DNA of 33,186 nt, taken from positions 1 to 33,186 of the forward strand of contig CANRCI010000003.1 in NCBI GenBank assembly GCA_947629075.1, in the 5' to 3' direction. Below are positions 1-12,200 of this stretch, piece after piece. The position numbers were made by a program, and so were the translations under genes. A model generated the notes under the pieces. It saw only the letters and a program-made list of their open reading frames with translations. It made no database searches and was not told where the DNA came from. This DNA is from an uncultured Bacilli bacterium (GTDB lineage: Bacteria; Bacillota_I; Bacilli_A; RF39; UBA660). Numbering within the stretch: the stretch's first letter is position 1; the number at the start of each line of letters is the position of its first letter.

Positions 1-2596
1 GTTTAACAATAAAGTTCATGTATTTACCTAAATCATTTTCAAAAACTACTTCTTTAACATTTAATTCTTCTTTAATTAAATCAGTTAAATCTTTAATTAG
101 AGGTTCATTTTTACCATCTAAAATAATTTCACTAATTGGTTGTCTTACTTTTATTTTTACTTCTTCTCTCGCATTTCTTCCTAGAGAAATTAAGTCTCTT
201 ACTAAGTCCATACGCATTTCTATTTTTTCATTAAATTTAGTCTCGTCACATTCAGGATAAGTTGCTAAATGGACACTTTCTTCACCCGTTAAATTAGTAT
301 ATATTTCTTCAACTGTAAATGGTGAGATTGGAGCGATTAATTTACAAAGTCCAATTAAAACTTCATAAGTAGTTTGGTAAACGGCTTTTTTATTATTATC
401 TAATTTACTAGCCCAAAATCTTCTTCGATTACGTCTTATGTACCAGTTAGATAAATCTTCATTTAAAAAGTTATTTAAAGCTTTACAAACTTTGTTTAAA
501 TCGTACTCGTCCATCGCTTTAGTAACATATTGAACTAACTTATTATACTTAGATAGTAACCATTTATCTATTTCTTCTAAATCTTGATAATCTACATGGA
601 ATTCTTTTGGATCTAAATTATCCGTATTGGCATATAGTTGAAAGAAAGTATAAGTATTTTTTAAAGTGCTGAAGAATTTAGAATTAACTTCTTTGATACC
701 TTCTTCGTCAAATTTTAAAGGTGTCCATACTGGCGACGCATTTAACATATAAAATCTAGTCGCATCAGCTCCATATTTTTCTAAAATACCAAATGGTTCC
801 ACTGCATTACCTTTACTTTTATGCATTTTTTGACCATATTTATCAAGGATTAAGTCATTAACTAAAACGTTTTTATATGGTGAACATCCCATAACAAATG
901 TAGAAATAACTAACAATGAATAGAACCAACCTCTCGTTTGGTCAATTCCTTCAGATATGAAATCAGCTGGAAATTGATTTTCAAATAATTCTTTATTTTC
1001 AAAAGGATAATGGTATTGAGCAAAAGGCATTGCACCTGAATCAAACCAACAATCTAGTACATCAGGAATACGCGTCATAGTTTTACCACACTTTGGACAT
1101 TTCAAATGAATTTCATCGATATATGGTTTATGTAAATCGAAATCATCTCCGATTTCTTCAATAGCCATTTCTTTTAACTCTTTGATTGATCCGACCATAT
1201 GAGTATGACCACATTCACATTTCCAATAAGGAATTGGACTTCCCCAATATCTACTACGTGAAACGTTCCAATCACGTGCATTAGCTAACCAATTGGCAAA
1301 TCTTTTTTCTCCGACATAAGATGGATACCAATTAACTTTTGAGTTAGCTTCAACTAATTTATCAGTCATTTCACTAACTTTTATATAGTAACTTGGCATT
1401 GAATAATAGATAAGAGGTGTATCACAACGCCAACAATGAGGATATTCGTGATATATCTTTTGGCGTTTAAATAACTTGTCATTCTCTTTCAAGTAAGCAA
1501 CTACTTCTTCATTGACATCGTGAACAAATTTTCCTTTCCATAATCCACCTGTATAACATCCATCTTTTCCAACTGGATTTAAAGATGGTAAGTCATATTT
1601 TTTACCGACTAAGGCATCATCAGCACCAAAGAATGGCGCAATATGAACGATACCAGTACCATCTTCCATTGTTACATAGTCATCACAAGTAACATAAAAA
1701 GCTTTCTTATCTACTTCAAATGATGGAATTAACTGTTCATACTCTTGATACTCTAAATCTTTTCCTTTATAAGTTTCAAGTACTTTTACCCCATCACCTA
1801 AAACTTGATCGATTAGGGAAGTTGCTAAAATAAATTTTATTCCTTTAGATTCGACTAATGAGTATTCAGCTTCAGGATTTACACACAAGGCTACATTGGC
1901 GATTAAAGTCCATGGTGTTGTCGTCCAAACCAAGAAATAAACATCTTCATCTTTTTTCTTGAACGGAACATAAACAGTAATAGCACTATCCGTTTGATAG
2001 TTTTGAGCTACTTCGTGAGTTGCAAGACCAGTTCCACAATGTGGACAATATGGAACAACTCTAGTACCTTCATAGAACATTCCCTTTTCAAACATCTCTT
2101 TTAATATCCACCATTCGGTTTCTATATACTCATTTTTATATGTTAAATACGGATTTTCTATATCGAAAAATTGTCCCATCTTAGTAGTTAGATCAGTAAA
2201 AGCCGATTCGTTTTCGCGAACACTCTTACGACATTCTTCATTAAATTTAGCTACACCTAATTTTTCAATTTCTTTTTTAGAAGAAATACCTAATTTTTTC
2301 TCAACGTGATTTTCAATTGGTAAACCGTGAGTATCCCATCCAATTTTTCTGATAACTTTTTTACCATTCATAACGTGATATTTAGTCATTGCATCTTTTA
2401 GATTTTTGGCAACCATGTGATGTAATCCAGGAAATCCATTAGCAAATGCTGGTCCATCATAAAAGACATAAGTTTCATCATTTTTATGCATTTCAACTTG
2501 AGTATCATGCATCTTATTCATACTTCCCCATGACTTTGAGATTTCTTCTTCTACTTCACTTACTGGTCTTTTATCTAATTCCTTAAACTTTCTCAT
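1..2596 (-). CDS. ileS: isoleucyl-tRNA synthetase (3' end outside window)
   Basis: This gene charges tRNA-Ile with isoleucine in the cytoplasm. It is absent from the ORF track because its 3' end runs off the left edge, but the frame is open from the ATG at 2596 to base 1 (about 865 codons). A strong AAGGAGGATA ribosome site precedes the ATG. The class I HIGH motif appears as GLHH within FANGFPGLHH, and the KMSKS loop as QKMHKSKGN. The context WTTTPWTLIAN of the editing domain and DWNVSRSRYWGSPIPYW are also readable. A CxxC pair (KCPKCGK) lies in the middle. The HIGH variant resembles the IleS type of many anaerobes and Bacteroidetes, sometimes called IleS2, rather than the B. subtilis form; this subtype is my inference. 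Expression should be controlled by the T-box leader upstream. Confidence 0.97.
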   Translation of the reverse strand, partial: MRKFKELDKRPVSEVEEEISKSWGSMNKMHDTQVEMHKNDETYVFYDGPAFANGFPGLHHMVAKNLKDAMTKYHVMNGKKVIRKIGWDTHGLPIENHVEKKLGISSKKEIEKLGVAKFNEECRKSVRENESAFTDLTTKMGQFFDIENPYLTYKNEYIETEWWILKEMFEKGMFYEGTRVVPYCPHCGTGLATHEVAQNYQTDSAITVYVPFKKKDEDVYFLVWTTTPWTLIANVALCVNPEAEYSLVESKGIKFILATSLIDQVLGDGVKVLETYKGKDLEYQEYEQLIPSFEVDKKAFYVTCDDYVTMEDGTGIVHIAPFFGADDALVGKKYDLPSLNPVGKDGCYTGGLWKGKFVHDVNEEVVAYLKENDKLFKRQKIYHEYPHCWRCDTPLIYYSMPSYYIKVSEMTDKLVEANSKVNWYPSYVGEKRFANWLANARDWNVSRSRYWGSPIPYWKCECGHTHMVGSIKELKEMAIEEIGDDFDLHKPYIDEIHLKCPKCGKTMTRIPDVLDCWFDSGAMPFAQYHYPFENKELFENQFPADFISEGIDQTRGWFYSLLVISTFVMGCSPYKNVLVNDLILDKYGQKMHKSKGNAVEPFGILEKYGADATRFYMLNASPVWTPLKFDEEGIKEVNSKFFSTLKNTYTFFQLYANTDNLDPKEFHVDYQDLEEIDKWLLSKYNKLVQYVTKAMDEYDLNKVCKALNNFLNEDLSNWYIRRNRRRFWASKLDNNKKAVYQTTYEVLIGLCKLIAPISPFTVEEIYTNLTGEESVHLATYPECDETKFNEKIEMRMDLVRDLISLGRNAREEVKIKVRQPISEIILDGKNEPLIKDLTDLIKEELNVKEVVFENDLGKYMNFIVK

Positions 2597-3283: not shown

Positions 3284-3396
3284 AATAGTACACTTCCTTT
3301 CCAACTATCACTTTATTATATAAATATAATATCACATTTCGACATTTTTTTACAATATTATTTTTATAAATGTGTAAATATATAGATGGTGATGAT

Positions 3397-3894
3397 ATGT
3401 ATTATTTAAAAATATATTTTTTCTATTCGATATTAGGACACTTAGTTGAGAGTATTGTCAACCCAAAAGTACCTAGTGGTATTCTCTACGGATATTGGAG
3501 TCCAATATATGGAATTGGAGTAATGTTAATTCTTTTAATCTATCACATGATCAGAAAAAGAACCCTATCTAGACAAAAGAGAATTGTTTATCTCTTCATT
3601 CTAGCGGCAGTCATCATTTCTTCAATCGAAGCTATAGGTGGAGAATTAATTGAACTATTCTGTGGCCGTGTATTTTGGAACTATGAAAATCAACTATTTC
3701 ATTTCGGTAAATATACATCGTTAAGAATGGGAATAATCTGGGGTATTTCTAGTGTCTTGTTAGTATACGTTATCCACCCATTTCTAAAACCGTTAATCAG
3801 AAAAATCCCGGATACTTTAATTGTCGTTTTAGCTTCTCTATTAGTTGTCGATTTTCTAATAACAATTCTCCATTTAAAAGGTTTAATATTATAA
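3397..3894 (+). CDS. CmpB-type integral membrane protein (putative ABC-transporter type IV family)
   Basis: A small polytopic membrane protein with about five hydrophobic segments. The N-terminal stretch (FFYSILGHLVESI) and the following GILYGYWSPIYGIG resemble the PF06541 (ABC_trans_CmpB) family of uncharacterised Bacillota membrane proteins. Later GIIWGISSVLLVY also fits. I choose the ATG at 3397 (165 aa), because GGTGAT lies just upstream at 3388-3393; the track's ATG at 3370 has no ribosome site. It is one of only two plus-strand genes. No ATPase partner is nearby, so a transport role is not supported here beyond family naming. Confidence 0.65.
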   Translation: MYYLKIYFFYSILGHLVESIVNPKVPSGILYGYWSPIYGIGVMLILLIYHMIRKRTLSRQKRIVYLFILAAVIISSIEAIGGELIELFCGRVFWNYENQLFHFGKYTSLRMGIIWGISSVLLVYVIHPFLKPLIRKIPDTLIVVLASLLVVDFLITILHLKGLIL

Positions 3895-3918
3895 AAAGAA
3901 GCATCTTAAAATGCTTCT
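3895..3918 (-). terminator. terminator between convergent genes
   Basis: AGAAGCAT / ATGCTTCT hairpin with a T-run on the minus strand (CTTTTTAT), starting at the stop codon of the alcohol dehydrogenase gene. On the plus strand the T-run is poor, so it mainly serves the minus-strand operon. Confidence 0.8.
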
Positions 3919-5051
3919 TCAAATATCTTTTTAATATCTTCTTTGGTTACATCTCTTGGATTACCAGGAGTACAAGGATCGTTTAACGCTTTTTCACTCA
4001 ACATATCGATATCGTCTCTATTACCACCAATTTCTGAGATGTGTTGTGGAATATCTAATCTAATCGCCAAATCTCTTACTTTTGCTACGACGTTGTCGAT
4101 AACTTCATCATCAGTACCGGAAATATCAGCTCCAAAAAGTTTTCCCATTACCTTAAACTTACCGACACAAGATGGACCATTAAATTTCATGACGTATGGA
4201 AGAAGTAAAGCATTAGCTACTCCGTGAGGTGTATCGTACACTGCCCCTAATTGATGAGCCATAGAGTGAACAATTCCTAAACCGACATTGCTAAATCCCA
4301 TACCAGCAATGTATTGGGCAACTCCCATATTCTCAAGTGCGTCTTCATCTTTGTTACAAGCTTTTTCCAAGTTATCATAAATCATTTTCATCGCTTGGAT
4401 GTGGAACATATCAGTCATACTCCAAGCTGCTTTAGTGATGTATCCTTCAATCGCATGCGTTAATGCATCTAGTCCAGTTGATGCTGCAACACTTCGTGGC
4501 AATGTTGCCATTAAATCAGTATCGATAATGGCTAAAACAGGAATGTCATTAGGATCGACACAAACCATCTTAACAACTTTTTCTTCATCAGTAATAACAT
4601 AGTTAATAGTAACTTCTGCAGCTGTTCCATGAGTAGTTGGAAGAGCTATCAACGGAAGAGCTTTATTTTTAGTATCAGCTACTCCTACTAAACTTACTAC
4701 ATCATTAAATTCCGGATTAGTCTTAATAATACTTATAGCTTTAGCAGTATCAATTACACTACCACCACCAACCGCAATGATGTAATCAGCCTCTATATCT
4801 TCGCAAAGCTTCAACCCTTCTTTAACATTGCTAACTGTTGGATTAGGTTTAACATTTGTAAATAATTCATACTTGATATCATTTTCGTCTAAAACGTCTA
4901 AAACCATTTTAGTAACGCCACAATTCATTAGACTTTCATCACTTACTAATAACGCTTTTTTATAATGTCTTTTATTTATTTCTTCAGGTAATATACTTCT
5001 CGCATTCTTACCAAAGTAAGAAGTTTCATTCAATATAATTCTATTTGCCAT
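3906..5051 (-). CDS. iron-containing alcohol dehydrogenase
   Basis: A 381-residue Fe-dependent alcohol dehydrogenase (PF00465) that interconverts an alcohol and an aldehyde using NAD(P)H in the cytoplasm. The nucleotide-binding GGGSVIDTAKA lies at residues 95-105. The metal ligands expected from FucO-type enzymes are present: D195 and H199 in GLDALTHAIEGY, H262 in IVHSMAHQ, and H276 in YDTPHG, plus H266. Length is normal for the family. The family signature GTGSEVT reads GTAAEVT here. It has a good GAGGAGAAAA ribosome site and follows the ALDH-like gene by 20 bases, so the two are co-transcribed. The substrate cannot be told from sequence; lactaldehyde, butanol or propanediol types are all possible. 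Confidence 0.93.
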   Translation of the reverse strand: MANRIILNETSYFGKNARSILPEEINKRHYKKALLVSDESLMNCGVTKMVLDVLDENDIKYELFTNVKPNPTVSNVKEGLKLCEDIEADYIIAVGGGSVIDTAKAISIIKTNPEFNDVVSLVGVADTKNKALPLIALPTTHGTAAEVTINYVITDEEKVVKMVCVDPNDIPVLAIIDTDLMATLPRSVAASTGLDALTHAIEGYITKAAWSMTDMFHIQAMKMIYDNLEKACNKDEDALENMGVAQYIAGMGFSNVGLGIVHSMAHQLGAVYDTPHGVANALLLPYVMKFNGPSCVGKFKVMGKLFGADISGTDDEVIDNVVAKVRDLAIRLDIPQHISEIGGNRDDIDMLSEKALNDPCTPGNPRDVTKEDIKKIFEEAF

Positions 5052-5071: not shown

Positions 5072-6508
5072 TTATTTATAAACATCTTTTAAAACAGTCG
5101 TCTTGATTGTCGACATATCTTCAAGTGTCTTTGACACTCCTTCAGTTGAAAATCCAGAATACTTCCATCCACCGAAAGGCATTTCATGAGAACGATACAT
5201 CGGACTTCCATTGATAACGACTGTACCACAATCTAGATATTTGCTAATTTTAAATGCCGTTTTAATATTTTTAGTAAAAACTGAAGCTCCCAAACCGTAA
5301 GGTGAAGAATTGACTATCTCGATGGCATCAATCGTATTTTTAAATGTTATTACTGGAAAGATCGGTCCATTTATCTCCAATGTTGAAAGAATTCTTTTGT
5401 CATCGGTAAAATCAGTTATTACTGTCGGTTCATAAAAATTCTTTCTTCTCTTTCCACCACACATTACGACAGCACCATTATCTACTAATTTCTTGACTTG
5501 TTTTTCTACTTTAATGGCATTTTTTTCGTCTATTAGACATGTCATATCAGTATCGTTTTCAAATGGTGAAGCAATCTTTAGTTTGTCTATTTCTCTAATT
5601 AGACGATTCAAAAATTCAGATTTAATGCTCTCATGAACTAAAATTCTTTTACAAGCCGTAGCTGATTGACCAGAATTGATTATTCTACTCTTTATTATCT
5701 CATCAACTGCTAAATTGATATCCGCATCACTGCAGACAATCGCAGCATTATTACCACCTAATTCGAGATGAACTTTAGTTAAATTGTTACTAGCTTGTTG
5801 CATCACTTTCATACCAGTTACGGTTGAACCCGAAAAAGTGATTAAATTTATATCTGGATGACTAGCCAAAGCTTTACCACTAACCTCTCCAGTTCCGTGG
5901 ATCAGTTGGATAACACTAGTCTCAACTCCAGCACTTCTAAGTAAATAAACTAATTTTGTAATAGTAAGTGGAACTCGGTGTGACGGTTTAACAATAACCG
6001 TATTTCCCATTATTAAAGCAGCTGGAATCTTGTGAGCAAAAGTTAAAATTGGACAATCAGATGGTAAAATAGCAGCGACAATTCCAAGGGGATAACGACT
6101 AGTTATTTCTAACGTATTATTAGATTTAGTACTTATGCCACTAGGTATACTATCTTCATACATATGACGACTTTTTTCCACAAAAGCTGTGGAAATTTCT
6201 ATTAAGGCATCGAACTCCTCACGTGCTTCACGAATTGGTTTACCACTCTCTCTTATATAAAGTCTCACTAACTCTTCTTTTCTCTTAATGACCAAATTTT
6301 TAAATTTAATTAGGATGTCTCCTCGTTCATAAATCGTTTTATTACGCCATCCATCAAGTGCTTGATAGGCATTGCTAACAGCTTCGTTAACATCATCAAA
6401 ATTTGAGTTAGGGATTCTATCGATTAACAAATTTTTATAGGGATTTATTACTTCAATAGTATCTTTACTATACGAATCCTTCCATTCGTTACCAATTAAA
6501 TTCTTCAT
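5072..6508 (-). CDS. aldehyde dehydrogenase superfamily protein lacking the catalytic cysteine
   Basis: A 478-residue ALDH-fold protein (PF00171) of normal length. The NAD-binding region (GNTVIVKPS, residues 168-176; FSGSTVTG, 225-232) and the general-base glutamate E249 in LELGG are present. Two catalytic residues are not. The motif GQxC reads GQSA (A283), with the only nearby Cys three residues later at C286 (GQSATACKR). The oxyanion-hole Asn of the family PFN(F/Y)P motif is Asp151 in PSDCP. I re-read both codons on the minus strand: GCT and GAT. The frame is intact and C286 might take over, but a non-catalytic or altered-chemistry protein is the simpler reading. It is first in an operon with the Fe-alcohol dehydrogenase. 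Ribosome site AAAGGGGCGAT. Confidence 0.9.
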   Translation of the reverse strand: MKNLIGNEWKDSYSKDTIEVINPYKNLLIDRIPNSNFDDVNEAVSNAYQALDGWRNKTIYERGDILIKFKNLVIKRKEELVRLYIRESGKPIREAREEFDALIEISTAFVEKSRHMYEDSIPSGISTKSNNTLEITSRYPLGIVAAILPSDCPILTFAHKIPAALIMGNTVIVKPSHRVPLTITKLVYLLRSAGVETSVIQLIHGTGEVSGKALASHPDINLITFSGSTVTGMKVMQQASNNLTKVHLELGGNNAAIVCSDADINLAVDEIIKSRIINSGQSATACKRILVHESIKSEFLNRLIREIDKLKIASPFENDTDMTCLIDEKNAIKVEKQVKKLVDNGAVVMCGGKRRKNFYEPTVITDFTDDKRILSTLEINGPIFPVITFKNTIDAIEIVNSSPYGLGASVFTKNIKTAFKISKYLDCGTVVINGSPMYRSHEMPFGGWKYSGFSTEGVSKTLEDMSTIKTTVLKDVYK

Positions 6509-6589: not shown

Positions 6590-9019
6590 TTATGTACTCA
6601 AATCTACGTTATCCCACTCTTCATCTAGTATTAACCAATTGAGAGCGCGATGACGTTCTAAGACGATTTCAGAATTGATTATATCACTGATATCTTTAGA
6701 ATTAATTCTAGAATCGATACAATACCAATCATAACGATAAGTTAAATCAGCCAGATCTAGTATTTCATTTATATCACGAGGAGTACATTTAGTAATGAAT
6801 TCACTATAATTCTTGTTGGAAGATATTATTGATGTAAGAGCTTGAGAATCGACTACATCATGAGGATAAGGAATTCTATCAACTAAATTCAAACTCCATA
6901 AAAGGATCAATAATCCTTCGAATTGCCATGATATCTGTACAGCTAAAGATTTATCCATCGTATCGAATAACCTTTTTTCATTAGGAGTTAGATATGCTGT
7001 AACACGGTATGTTGCTAGTAACTTATTAAAGAACTTTTTAGAATCTTTAAGTTGTTTTTTCTTTTTTAAACGAATGACATCACAAGCAAAATTACAACTC
7101 AAACACAACGCAATGGCACGCTTAGCTACTTCATCAACCGTTCGCTTATGACAACTGTAACTACTTTCAATTAGTGGTAATTCCTCTAGATAAGATATTC
7201 CTTGTGATTTAAGTATCTCAATACTGTTTAGTTTTCTCTTTAAGGCTTCTTTAAACGATTCATCACTTTCAATTAAACTTACAGTAGCAAGAGCGTAATC
7301 AGCATAAGCAAGATTCATATTACTCAAAACGGAAGATACAGCAATTAAGTATCCTTCAATGTAAGAGACTTTATATATTCGCTCATTATCTAAGACATAA
7401 GTCCTAATAGTACGATCGTTTAACGTCTTTTCATTATAACTCTTTATACCCGTCTGGGAAGAGATAACATTTTTACTCATCCAATCATTTACTTTAATTT
7501 CGTATTCATTATTATTAACACATCTAAAGATAAATACACGATAATTGATATCATCTTTTTCTAAAACATCGAAAACATTGAATTCTCGATCGATTTTAGA
7601 ATCGTTTTCTTTTGGAAAATTAAATTTAAAAATTGGACAGTTCTCAATTATGTGATAGAAAACTTTTACATCACTACTACTAATTTTATTGTAATCTTGT
7701 TCGTGAGTATCGATTATTTCATCTTTTTTATCTTTCTTAGATTTGGTCTTTTTTTTCTTTTTGGCTTCTTTTTCCTCTTCATCAAAAGTTGTAATTTCTG
7801 GATTGACATCTATTTTTACTGGTTTAGGTTTTGACATATCTAAAACATCAGCAATATCCATTTGCATCTTCAGAAGAGAGTCTTCCTCTAACTCTGGTTT
7901 TGGTGTATCATCAACAATATTTATAATTGGTTCCTCTACTTCTTCAATAACCGATATTTTTTCCTCAACTGGTTTGAATTCAGAAGATCCATCTATATTT
8001 TTAAAATCTAATTTATAAGGGAAAATGTCATAATCAGATAGATCGTTTTCAATCTTACCATCGATTAAGTCAAATATTTCCACAAAGATCATCTGTAGAG
8101 TATGTTCATCGAGATTATCTTTACTCAAATCGATTAAAAGGTAATTGTCATCAACCCTAGTAAGAATCAAATCTTTTTTATTAAATGGTAGATTACCATG
8201 GTCCATGATCGATAGATTAGCCAAATTAGAACTGATACAATTCTTAACACGATTTGCTAAATTATACGATTTTTCAATAATTCTTAAATCGCTATTGAGA
8301 ATCTCAAAATATATTTCATCATTAATAATTGATAGATGAGCATCTTTATATTCATATTTAAAATAGAATTTTGGAACTTTAATATTTCGATAACTACTTT
8401 CCTGTTCAATCATTTTTTGAGCAGTATTTTTAACAATTTCTGGTTTAGCTTTAGTATCTATCACTGTCTTTTTCTCTGGTATTTCTTCAGTTGGAATATC
8501 GATTTTAGTTTTCTGTGGTGGATTGACTGGCTTAAATACTTGTAGCGAATTTAAAATTTCATTCATAATTATTACATTTTTATCTTTTCGCAACTGTTTT
8601 GCATTAAATACTCTATCTGCCGTATCTAAGTTAATGGTGAAGTTAATAATCATACCATTTATTAAAACGAAGGACTGTAATAATTTCTTAAAATCTTTTT
8701 CTAATACTACTTGTTTTACATCTAATTCTTTAATTAAATAATCTTCATCAAAGATGACTTTAACATCATCTGGTAATCGCTTGATATTAGCGTGATAATT
8801 TGAATCAAAATTCTTATCACTGGCAAAACCAACAAACATAATACTTAAGGTTGTAAGGTTGTCGATGTTGAACAAATATAATGTATTACTGTTGATATTT
8901 AATTTTTTATATTCACTTCTTTTTACTTGAATCCATTTTGGTGATGCTTTGAACTTAAATCCAATATTTTTAGATCTAATATCAACGTATACTTCTTTTT
9001 CTTCTTTCTTTCTATTCAT
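6590..9019 (-). CDS. large multidomain protein with C-terminal DUF4272
   Basis: About 809 residues, function unknown. I prefer the ATG at 9019 (MNRKKEEK), preceded by GGGTGATAGCT, over the track's GTG at 9028. Residues ~10-165 look like a beta-rich domain (FKASPKWIQV...). A similar-looking domain follows at ~450-590 (IFKFNFP..., FNVFDVLE...). They are joined by acidic and Lys-rich low-complexity linkers (KKKKKTKSKKDKK). The last ~185 residues match DUF4272 as I know it: RTVDEVAKRA, SWQFEGLLILLWSL, RDINEILDLADLTYRYDW, and the terminal ERHRALNWL...EWDNVDLST. There is no signal peptide or membrane segment, so it is cytoplasmic. The start overlaps the upstream gene's stop by 8 bases (ATGAATAG), implying translational coupling. 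Confidence 0.85.
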   Translation of the reverse strand: MNRKKEEKEVYVDIRSKNIGFKFKASPKWIQVKRSEYKKLNINSNTLYLFNIDNLTTLSIMFVGFASDKNFDSNYHANIKRLPDDVKVIFDEDYLIKELDVKQVVLEKDFKKLLQSFVLINGMIINFTINLDTADRVFNAKQLRKDKNVIIMNEILNSLQVFKPVNPPQKTKIDIPTEEIPEKKTVIDTKAKPEIVKNTAQKMIEQESSYRNIKVPKFYFKYEYKDAHLSIINDEIYFEILNSDLRIIEKSYNLANRVKNCISSNLANLSIMDHGNLPFNKKDLILTRVDDNYLLIDLSKDNLDEHTLQMIFVEIFDLIDGKIENDLSDYDIFPYKLDFKNIDGSSEFKPVEEKISVIEEVEEPIINIVDDTPKPELEEDSLLKMQMDIADVLDMSKPKPVKIDVNPEITTFDEEEKEAKKKKKTKSKKDKKDEIIDTHEQDYNKISSSDVKVFYHIIENCPIFKFNFPKENDSKIDREFNVFDVLEKDDINYRVFIFRCVNNNEYEIKVNDWMSKNVISSQTGIKSYNEKTLNDRTIRTYVLDNERIYKVSYIEGYLIAVSSVLSNMNLAYADYALATVSLIESDESFKEALKRKLNSIEILKSQGISYLEELPLIESSYSCHKRTVDEVAKRAIALCLSCNFACDVIRLKKKKQLKDSKKFFNKLLATYRVTAYLTPNEKRLFDTMDKSLAVQISWQFEGLLILLWSLNLVDRIPYPHDVVDSQALTSIISSNKNYSEFITKCTPRDINEILDLADLTYRYDWYCIDSRINSKDISDIINSEIVLERHRALNWLILDEEWDNVDLST

Positions 9020-11435
9020 AGCTATCACCCATCCTTATATCTTCTAATTCAAAATATTCTGAATATATTGGGTATTTCAATTCACCAACGCGGTACTTTT
9101 CACGGAGATTAGTTTCGTATTCGCGGAAGTTAGCATACTCTTTGATACCCCTTCTACAAATTTTAGAGATAAGAAGTGCTAAATCTTCTTCACTAACACC
9201 GATTAAGATAGCCTTTTCAATCTTGTATTTAGCATTTTCTCCAACATATGGATTATGTTTATAAACCAAAGATAGATATTGTAAACACAATTCCAAATTC
9301 TTGGTTCCTTCTTTATCCAAATCTTTAAACAGATTGTATTCGTTAAGAATTTTCTTTAAATAATCGTAAAAAGCACTTTCTTGTAATTTTTCATTTAAAT
9401 CTTCTAGATAGTTTTTTAAGAAAGCATCTTTGGCAAAATAGTTATGAGATCCAAAAATATATCTTGGATAATCTAACCAATTGGAATCAACTAACCCTCT
9501 AACAAAGTTAATTTTTTCTAAAAAGTCTTTCTTATCTTCATATGAAGGAAGAGTATCTTTCTGTTTATAGGCATCTTGTAGGACATAATCAGTTACGAAT
9601 TCTTCGTATTTTTCTTTATCATTTTTAATTATTTTATATAATTTATCAAGTGTATCATAATCTTGTTTCTTCATGACTAAATTCAAGAACAACATAATTG
9701 TCTTTTGTAATTCATATTTTTCTAAGTTACCTAGTTGTGGATAATATTTTGTTTTAGATACCAAAGATAAAATGTTATGGTAATCCAATTCACGTAACTC
9801 ACGCTCGAAGGTTGCCTGATTCATTCTGATCGTCCATGTTTCCATCGCGTCATTTTTATGTAATTTAAAAGTATACTCATCATTTAAACCGATAACTATA
9901 TGACTTTCCTTACGTAACTTAGTACCGTTTTCCATATATATATTCGGAGCAGATTTAACAATTAAATCGACACGGTTATGAGTTAAATCGTGAACTAAAA
10001 ACTTAATTTTATCTATTTTTATCTCTTTACCAGGAATTAGACTATAATCATTCAATTCGATTTCAGGGACTTGAATAATGCCAAATGAATCATTTAATTC
10101 ATAATATGGCAAGTGTTCAACAACTAATTTCTGATGATCATTTAAATTTACAACAAAGTTTTCAAAAGTATTGGTAATAGAACTCAATATATCACTTGGA
10201 TAGTAAACAGCTTCTTTCTCGTCAGTTTTTTCTGTGGCTACTTCAATGTCCTCTTCTTCAAAGGTTTTAACTTTTTGGACAACAGGTTGTAATTTTGGTT
10301 TAAAGATGATAATCTTACCATCTTCTTCAGGAACAACTTCTTCTTCATTTAACTTTTCAATTTCCTGTTCAATTAAATTCATTAACTCATCTAATTGCTT
10401 GCGATCGAGATTGTTATCTTTTACTTGGACATTAGGTAGTTTTTGACTATTATTAGATAAATCTAAGAATTCAATCTCTCTGTCAGATTGTTCAATTTTC
10501 TCTAACTTGGCATTTATTTCATCAGTCAACTTTTCTAATTCTTCATTATCTAGAACTTTGTCAACATTTGGATTCTCTGACTCGTAATGAGTCTCTTCAT
10601 CTTTTACTTCTTCTTTTTCTATTTCATCAGATGATTCTTTAACAATGCCCGCACTCAATCTTTCAATTTGACGATCGATATTATCCAAAACTTTATCGAC
10701 ATCAACTTTTTCCTCTTCGACTGGAACCTCAAGCTTTTCTTCTTTAACCGGAATTTCTTCAAATAAGTTTTCTTCATTCGTAGATTGGGTATCTTCTTCT
10801 ACTTTTTCTGAAGTAACTTCTATAGTCTTATCCTCCTCTGGAACATAACCAAACACCTCATCTAGAGAGACAAAACTATTTCCATCATGATCCATAAATT
10901 TATTTTCAAACGGACTAAAAGTAATGTAATCTTCACCTTTAAAAAGAGGAATTAACCCTTTCTTTTTAAATTTTTTACCTTCGATTATTTCTCGATGTGA
11001 TAAAAAATTAACTTGTTTATCAGTAATAAAACATCCATTTGAAGTATAAGATAAAAGCTTCTTCAAATCTTCTTTGACAACGATTCCATAAAAATTCTCT
11101 ACTTGTTCAACATAATAGTTATTAATAGCAATATCTGTTAAGGCATCGTGAACTTCACTATAAGTTAGATTTAAAAGCTCATCTTTAATACGCTTAATCA
11201 ATTCGATATCATCAGTCTTTATATCTTCTTCGACTAGAATAGCAAAAGAAGTACTAGTATCATCAAATTCACTACTTACAAACCAAGATTTTATTTTTTC
11301 TAACTTTTCACTAGGGATTACAAAGTCTGTTGTGCAATTATCCGTCTCAAAAACTAATACACGTCTTTCTTTTGTTACATAAATCTTTTCATTTTCTAAT
11401 TGAATCAACAATAAAAAGTTCTTACTACCGTCCAT
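9012..11435 (-). CDS. large acidic protein of unknown function, partner of the DUF4272 protein
   Basis: 807 residues, not recognised. Residues 1-210 form a folded mixed region (KNFLLLIQLENEKIYV..., TFSPFENKFMDHDG). Residues ~211-400 are Glu/Lys-rich and likely disordered or coiled coil, with a repeated VDKVLDN motif. A beta-rich domain of about 110 residues follows (FGIIQVPEIELNDYSLIPGKE... to MENGTKLRKESHIVIG), then a helical C-terminus (~560-807). There is no signal peptide or membrane segment. It is the first gene of a two-gene operon with a GGGAGGACAT ribosome site. Similar size, similar architecture (folded head, charged linker, folded tail) and coupled translation suggest the two products form a complex; this is inference. 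Confidence 0.8.
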   Translation of the reverse strand: MDGSKNFLLLIQLENEKIYVTKERRVLVFETDNCTTDFVIPSEKLEKIKSWFVSSEFDDTSTSFAILVEEDIKTDDIELIKRIKDELLNLTYSEVHDALTDIAINNYYVEQVENFYGIVVKEDLKKLLSYTSNGCFITDKQVNFLSHREIIEGKKFKKKGLIPLFKGEDYITFSPFENKFMDHDGNSFVSLDEVFGYVPEEDKTIEVTSEKVEEDTQSTNEENLFEEIPVKEEKLEVPVEEEKVDVDKVLDNIDRQIERLSAGIVKESSDEIEKEEVKDEETHYESENPNVDKVLDNEELEKLTDEINAKLEKIEQSDREIEFLDLSNNSQKLPNVQVKDNNLDRKQLDELMNLIEQEIEKLNEEEVVPEEDGKIIIFKPKLQPVVQKVKTFEEEDIEVATEKTDEKEAVYYPSDILSSITNTFENFVVNLNDHQKLVVEHLPYYELNDSFGIIQVPEIELNDYSLIPGKEIKIDKIKFLVHDLTHNRVDLIVKSAPNIYMENGTKLRKESHIVIGLNDEYTFKLHKNDAMETWTIRMNQATFERELRELDYHNILSLVSKTKYYPQLGNLEKYELQKTIMLFLNLVMKKQDYDTLDKLYKIIKNDKEKYEEFVTDYVLQDAYKQKDTLPSYEDKKDFLEKINFVRGLVDSNWLDYPRYIFGSHNYFAKDAFLKNYLEDLNEKLQESAFYDYLKKILNEYNLFKDLDKEGTKNLELCLQYLSLVYKHNPYVGENAKYKIEKAILIGVSEEDLALLISKICRRGIKEYANFREYETNLREKYRVGELKYPIYSEYFELEDIRMGDSYE

Positions 11436-11549: not shown

Positions 11550-11585
11550 TATTAAAAGAGAACTAAATAAATATTAGTTCTCTTT
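11550..11585 (-). terminator. terminator of the redox operon
   Basis: AAGAGAACTAA / TTAGTTCTCTT hairpin with a T-run (CTTTTAAT) on the minus strand, starting at the stop codon of the flavin reductase-rubredoxin gene. Confidence 0.85.
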
Positions 11586-12200
11586 CTTAGTAAACATCTC
11601 TTTCCCAACACCACATATTGGACACTTGAAGTCATCGGGAAGTTCTCCTTCATAGACATAACCACAAACGCTGCAGACATATGAAGTTGATGATTTCTTT
11701 TCTTCAATGTAGGTTGGAGCACTCTTTGGAGCTGTTCCCTTAATGACATCGTGATAGTATTTATAAGTCATCGGTTCATTATCAGTTAATTTGGCACAGG
11801 CTTTAACACGAGCTTTAAAAATATCATGCGTCTCACAATCGATAACTTCTAATAATTCACAGATAAAATATCCACAAGTATCCTCTTTTAAGACTGGTAC
11901 ATTTTCGATTTCTTCATAACTAGTATCGTTAAATTTATCAAAATCTCTTGAAGAGTGGAAACCGAAGCGACCAATAAGTTCGGAATTAGTCTTTTCTGAT
12001 AAAACATTAACGGCAAAACGTTTGCTTTTCTTAATCATTTCATCAGTATAATTTTCTTTATTGACACTTATTGTAATAATCGGATTTTCACTAGTTATCT
12101 GGGTAAAAGTATTAATGGTACAACCACTCTTAACCCCTTCAAAACTAGTAGTAACAATATACATGCCATAAGATACATCTCTAAACAAATTCTTATCCAT
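11574..12200 (-). CDS. flavin reductase-rubredoxin fusion (high-molecular-weight rubredoxin type)
   Basis: 208 residues in two domains. Residues ~1-155 are an FMN-binding split-barrel flavin reductase domain ([35 protein letters not shown]). Residues ~173-203 are a complete rubredoxin: C176, C179, C193 and C196 in VCSVCGY and [12 protein letters not shown]. This architecture matches the high-molecular-weight rubredoxin (Hrb) known from Moorella, where it passes electrons from NAD(P)H to a flavodiiron protein that reduces O2 or NO. No flavodiiron gene lies in the window, so the acceptor is unknown. It is the last gene of a three-gene run, 8 bases after the thioredoxin-like gene. An electron-transfer or detoxification role in an anaerobe is likely. 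Confidence 0.92.

Follow-up and report, generated by a model that had tools for sequence, protein, structure and literature searches.

Aldehyde dehydrogenase (ALDH) chemistry requires the thiol of a catalytic cysteine to form the thiohemiacetal. What, then, can an ALDH-fold protein do in a lineage that has dispensed with this residue? The question is raised by a gene located on the minus strand, at positions 5072 to 6508, of a 33,186-nucleotide contig segment from an uncultured Bacilli bacterium, hereafter called the window. The initial annotation of this locus noted a full-length frame in which both the catalytic Cys and the oxyanion Asn are replaced. It proposed either a pseudoenzyme that binds or channels an aldehyde for an Fe-alcohol dehydrogenase of the same operon, or an enzyme using a neighboring cysteine.

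The open reading frame starts with ATG, is uninterrupted and encodes a protein of 478 residues. The Pfam Aldedh model (PF00171) matches residues 9-470 with 469 bits, for a cut-off of 23, which places the protein in the ALDH superfamily; among solved structures, ordinary hydrolytic ALDHs are the closest, at about 30-35% identity. On re-reading of the frame, its length and all the residue numbers first given are correct. The motif around the missing Cys is I276-I-N-S-G-Q-S-A283-T-A-C286-K-R, with A283 (codon GCT, 5660-5662, minus strand as for all codons below) at the position of the nucleophile of GQxC and C286 (TGT, 5651-5653) three residues further on. The PFNFP-type motif reads P149-S-D151-C-P: D151 (GAT, 6056-6058) stands at the position of the oxyanion Asn and both Phe are also replaced, F150 by Ser and F152 by Cys. 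Hence, nucleophile and oxyanion Asn are both absent; the general-base Glu of LELGG is present as E249 (5762-5764) in H247-L-E249-L-G-G. Finally, in the EIFGP-type motif, E378-I-N380-G-P, N380 (5369-5371) occupies the place held by Phe in orthologues that have the catalytic Cys, hereafter live orthologues. Several NCBIfam ALDH models match the window protein, all far under their cut-offs. The best one, for the live and the Cys-less proteins alike, is the lactaldehyde dehydrogenase of methanogens (NF040648), which gives 417.8 bits for the window protein with a curated cut-off of 650. Rounded scores are 418 bits for the window, 423 for the sister genus and 434 and 443 for live orthologues. Since the live orthologues also remain below 650, the ancestral substrate is not assignable from this model.

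Orthologues were searched in 386 genomes of the GTDB family of the window, with additional searches at the genus level. The Cys-less proteins come from 11 genomes in three genera: the genus of the window (g1), represented in the sample by the window genome (G000) alone; its sister genus (g78), with six Cys-less genomes (G372, G212, G305, G410, G409, G413); and the next genus (g81), with four (G214, G374, G415, G414). Residue 283 is not Cys in any of the 11. It is Ala in one genome (the window), Ser in nine, including every g78 member, and Asn in one, g81 having either Ser or Asn. Conversely, Cys283 is present in all 76 other aligned ALDHs of the same bacterial family, as well as in 74/74 other matches in the named genome collection. 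There, the six matches without Cys are metagenome-assembled genomes (MAGs) labeled "uncultured Bacilli" or "uncultured Bacillota", from rabbit, goat and other sources, and they match the g78 contigs. The orthologues closest to the window protein, 56-58% identical, all carry Ser283, so that no close orthologue with Cys283 is found. The other two positions singled out initially as possible characters of a subfamily behave differently. Asp151 occurs in the window alone, Asn being found in all other clade members in which this residue is sequenced; Cys286 is likewise restricted to the window genome, with Thr in g78, Asn in g81 and Ser in live orthologues. Thus, the loss of Cys283 alone is a character of the lineage, Asp at 151 and Cys at 286 being confined to the window genome. 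The retention of the general base holds for the window and g78 and fails in g81, where E249 is replaced by Ser or Asp. As for the EIFGP motif, its Phe is missing from all clade members, with Asn in the window and Leu or Met in the remaining Cys-less proteins. Within the clade, degradation of the active site is most advanced in g81 (loci L073-L077), in which both Cys283 and Glu249 are gone (SLGG / DLSG).

How much of the rest of the enzyme has been kept can be measured on 158 positions whose conservation among live orthologues is 97% or more, classed by knowledge of the ALDH motifs. The window protein keeps 107 of them. Changes affect 13 of the 27 catalytic and substrate-tunnel positions in the window, 14 in g78 and 23 in g81. 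The corresponding numbers are 0, 1 and 2 for the 11 nucleotide-site positions, and 38, 39 and 58 for the remaining 120. The NAD-binding motifs, noted from the outset as retained, are therefore kept, no nucleotide-site position being lost in the window protein. Comparison of catalytic with all other positions by Fisher's test gives p = 0.07 for the window, 0.045 for g78 and 0.0002 for g81, values that are descriptive and ignore both relatedness and the choice of positions. As far as residue identities indicate, the dinucleotide portion of the active site has been spared more than the portion responsible for the chemistry. An AlphaFold2 model of the window protein, built with a 66-sequence alignment, has a pLDDT of 93 and a pTM of 0.91, with no segment below 50, and superimposes on solved ALDHs with TM-scores of 0.94-0.95; the predicted fold is intact. 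This model was used in place of one derived from the nine Cys-less sequences alone, in which the C-terminus is poor (pLDDT 77).

Could the protein still be an enzyme, either by catalyzing an NAD(P)-linked reaction that needs no Cys or by using Ser283, or C286 in the window, as nucleophile? E249 and the nucleotide-site residues retained in g1 and g78 would fit such a role, as would the invariance of Ser283 in g78, where this fixed residue may confer a weak Ser-based activity; moreover, a review on pseudoenzymes points out that some of them may have migrated catalytic residues (PMC10211241). However, positions 282-286 offer no nucleophilic residue common to the clade, residue 283 being Ala in the window and Asn in one g81 member, and a substitute nucleophile elsewhere in this segment was rejected for want of a conserved candidate. 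The suggestion that C286 takes over is not borne out, this position being Thr and Asn in the related genera. In addition, E249 is lost in g81, the EIFGP Phe is lost throughout, and the substrate-tunnel positions vary between genera of the clade. We consider a persisting catalytic role unlikely. Because the Cys is absent without a conserved replacement, aldehyde oxidation is not to be expected.

A second possibility is that function has been lost in the clade and that the protein is disappearing. In a maximum-likelihood (ML) tree of 83 ALDHs, the nine full-length Cys-less proteins form a single clade with 100/100 support, in which the window is sister to g78 with g81 outside both. The branches are long (0.94 for the window, 1.59 for L075), dN/dS is higher across this clade than among live orthologues, and no match to the Cys-less gene was detected in G080, G411, G412 and G083, where it is either dispensable or missed by assembly. 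These features are those expected from decay. Against this, no internal stop occurs in any Cys-less match, each copy having an open frame. Nei-Gojobori dN/dS values are 0.05 for L073-L074 (dS 0.62), 0.22 for L069-L070 (dS 0.78) and 0.13 for L067-L068 (dS 1.42), this range of 0.05-0.22 being that of the least saturated pairs, with the remaining pairs more saturated. A C-terminal block, EMAYGGWKYSGFGTEGVSSTLEQLSL, is almost invariant among g78 species, and about two thirds of the live-invariant positions persist in the window, as described above. By these measures, the gene is under purifying selection and is not a pseudogene, and the protein should therefore still be in use; ongoing decay appears quite improbable.

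Species markers bear on the origin of the gene. The SecY tree has the same order as the ALDH tree, uniting the window with g78 (support 99), then g81 (90). This agreement indicates that the gene was inherited vertically, and a horizontal origin of the window copy was rejected on the same ground. The rpoB tree unites g78 and g81 (99), rpoB being missing from the window assembly, and the isoleucyl-tRNA synthetase (IleS) tree does not resolve the placement of the window. The IleS tree also conflicts with the rpoB and SecY trees for G080, and two IleS types coexist in the family (L293-L321), one of about 1030 residues and another only about 31% identical to it. Outside this family but within the class, the ALDH relatives at L013 and L017 contain three to four in-frame TGA codons, consistent with TGA being read as Trp in the families concerned.

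The gene immediately downstream of the ALDH-like gene gave rise to the idea of aldehyde channeling. About 20 nucleotides away in the window lies a gene for a FucO-type Fe-alcohol dehydrogenase (lactaldehyde reductase; 3906-5051, minus strand), which matches the NCBIfam equivalog PRK10624 with 563.8 bits for a cut-off of 537 and has intact ligand residues (D195/H199/H262/H276). G409 and G410 likewise have FucO close to their Cys-less gene. This arrangement would suit a protein that binds an aldehyde or channels it to its neighbor. Yet at E<=1e-100, no FucO was detected anywhere in G372, G212, G305, G214 or G374; among the six Cys-less genomes of the family sample, to which G409 and G410 do not belong, only that of the window has one, and 34 of the 72 genomes with a live ALDH do. 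FucO being missing from most Cys-less genomes and the substrate-tunnel residues not being conserved, channeling as a conserved role is very doubtful. As to an artifact of sequencing or assembly, or a mutation private to this genome, which the single MAG representing the window genus and the private D151 and C286 might bring to mind, it can be set aside for the loss of Cys283, because this loss is common to independent MAGs, from 11 genomes in three genera, in separate assemblies and with different codons (GCT, TCN, AGT and AAT).

The reading that we favor, with a probability of roughly 0.6, is that the Cys-less protein is a vertically inherited pseudoenzyme that retains the fold and the dinucleotide-site residues and has a non-catalytic role. 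The catalytic-residue loss shared by the whole lineage and the purifying selection are what is expected of such a protein, and the pseudoenzyme proposal made from the window sequence is strengthened on this point. An ordinary NAD(P)-dependent ALDH would have lost thiohemiacetal formation in a lineage of three related genera and would have been kept for another task. Judging from the retained residues, it may still oligomerize and bind a dinucleotide, and could act as a scaffold or as a nucleotide-responsive regulator. An active paralogue that the dead copy might regulate was looked for, and none was found in the same genomes except AdhE-type bifunctional enzymes. The Cys-less protein is the sole classical ALDH of these genomes, the other PF00171 matches being, from their length and profile range, mainly of the AdhE type.

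Which partners might such a protein have? Upstream of the gene in g1 and g78 lies a gene for an 812-residue protein with a C-terminal DUF4272 domain (6590-9028, minus strand), itself overlapped by a gene for an 807-residue protein without Pfam match (9012-11435, minus strand). Both long proteins are present in g1 and in the ALDH-bearing g78 loci, and the long DUF4272 fusion is seen in these two genera alone; no paper on DUF4272 was found in the literature searched. Because they are conserved neighbors in g1 and g78, these two operon proteins of about 800 residues each are the first partner candidates, and would be likelier partners than FucO. The g81 loci are devoid of this pair, their upstream genes encoding a glycosyltransferase-TPR protein and a superoxide dismutase, and G080, from g78, has both long proteins and one further gene upstream, but no match to the ALDH; the partnership is therefore not obligatory. 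In g78, the upstream operon (window 6590-11435; L066:1-7902; L262) includes a third protein with Listeria-Bacteroides repeats. Further along the window, positions 11574-12200 encode a fusion protein in which a flavin-reductase-like domain is followed by a rubredoxin-like domain at the C-terminus. On the other side, a gene for a PF06541-like membrane protein (3370-3894, plus strand; the g78 homologue was scanned) is found downstream of the Cys-less gene, on the opposite strand, in all loci of the three genera that reach that far. Beyond it, in most of these loci, comes the IleS gene used as synteny anchor (2-2596, minus strand, cut by the contig end in the window).

The live ALDH gene has another neighborhood. 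Neighborhood clustering showed that it is nearly always directly preceded by a FIST-domain gene (69 loci), and a FIST gene is present in 72/72 genomes with a live ALDH vs. 0/6 Cys-less genomes of the family sample, a contrast that rests on one clade and counts as one evolutionary observation, not six. The FIST-domain protein was thus probably the partner of the active ancestor. It consists of FIST_N and FIST_C (for example L078:1216-2382), often with FucO in front, and occurs without this ALDH in 35 further genomes; no paper combining "FIST domain" with aldehyde dehydrogenase was found in the literature searched. A very divergent ALDH from G123 (L147:7137-8519, branch 1.91) has kept the Cys (GQVC) and replaced the general-base Glu by Asn (NLSS), and it has MPFNLPS; with its FIST gene still present, it may represent an independent instance of catalytic loss.

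The codons of residue 283 bear on the history of the loss. Ser is encoded by TCN in g78, the GCT of the window being one step from TCT, vs. AGT in g81; a single change leads from the TGT found in live orthologues to either the TCN or the AGT type, and not from one of these to the other. This hints that the Cys disappeared on two occasions, once in window/g78 and once in g81. Changes at F380, W273 (to mostly Lys), D376 and S436 are common to the clade and, if the two Cys losses were separate, would have preceded them together with the absence of the FIST gene. A more specific scenario, which we regard as rather speculative, is that the protein acts on its own as a regulator or scaffold responsive to NAD(P)(H) and serves a DUF4272 system not yet described, the strict association of ALDH with FIST having been lost beforehand; the Cys would have disappeared, maybe twice, from a protein already freed from catalysis.

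In comparison with known systems, the nearest relatives are the live orthologues (GQVCCASKR, PFNFP), which have the same fold, share about 41-48% full-length identity and form the sister group of the Cys-less clade. They have Cys283, N151, E249 and F380, with a FIST gene in every genome, whereas the Cys-less clade has neither the Cys nor the FIST gene. With about 70 of them sequenced in related genera, they provide a ready comparison for an ALDH fold without chemistry. Automated annotation would label the Cys-less proteins lactaldehyde or succinate-semialdehyde dehydrogenases, crediting these uncultured gut bacteria with an activity that they probably lack. Human ALDH16A1 is a longer protein with two ALDH domains; in contrast, the window protein is bacterial, with 478 residues and a single domain per chain. 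ALDH16A1 is an ALDH pseudoenzyme without catalytic residues, thought to act via protein interactions (PMC10650815). Bacterial ALDH pseudoenzymes are little described, and the single precedent found is that of the GRM1 microcompartment loci, where the catalytic Cys of a second AldDH is replaced by Ser or Pro and a scaffold or regulator role has been proposed (Axen et al., 2014; PMC4207490). There, the dead AldDH is a paralogue that accompanies an active AldDH within a microcompartment locus, whereas that of the window replaces the only classical ALDH; no BMC shell-protein domain was found among the neighbors scanned with Pfam, and the genome has no second classical ALDH that would correspond to the active copy of GRM1. 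ALDH pseudoenzymes are thus already known, and the present case stands apart in that a lineage has converted, in place, the sole classical ALDH that it has.
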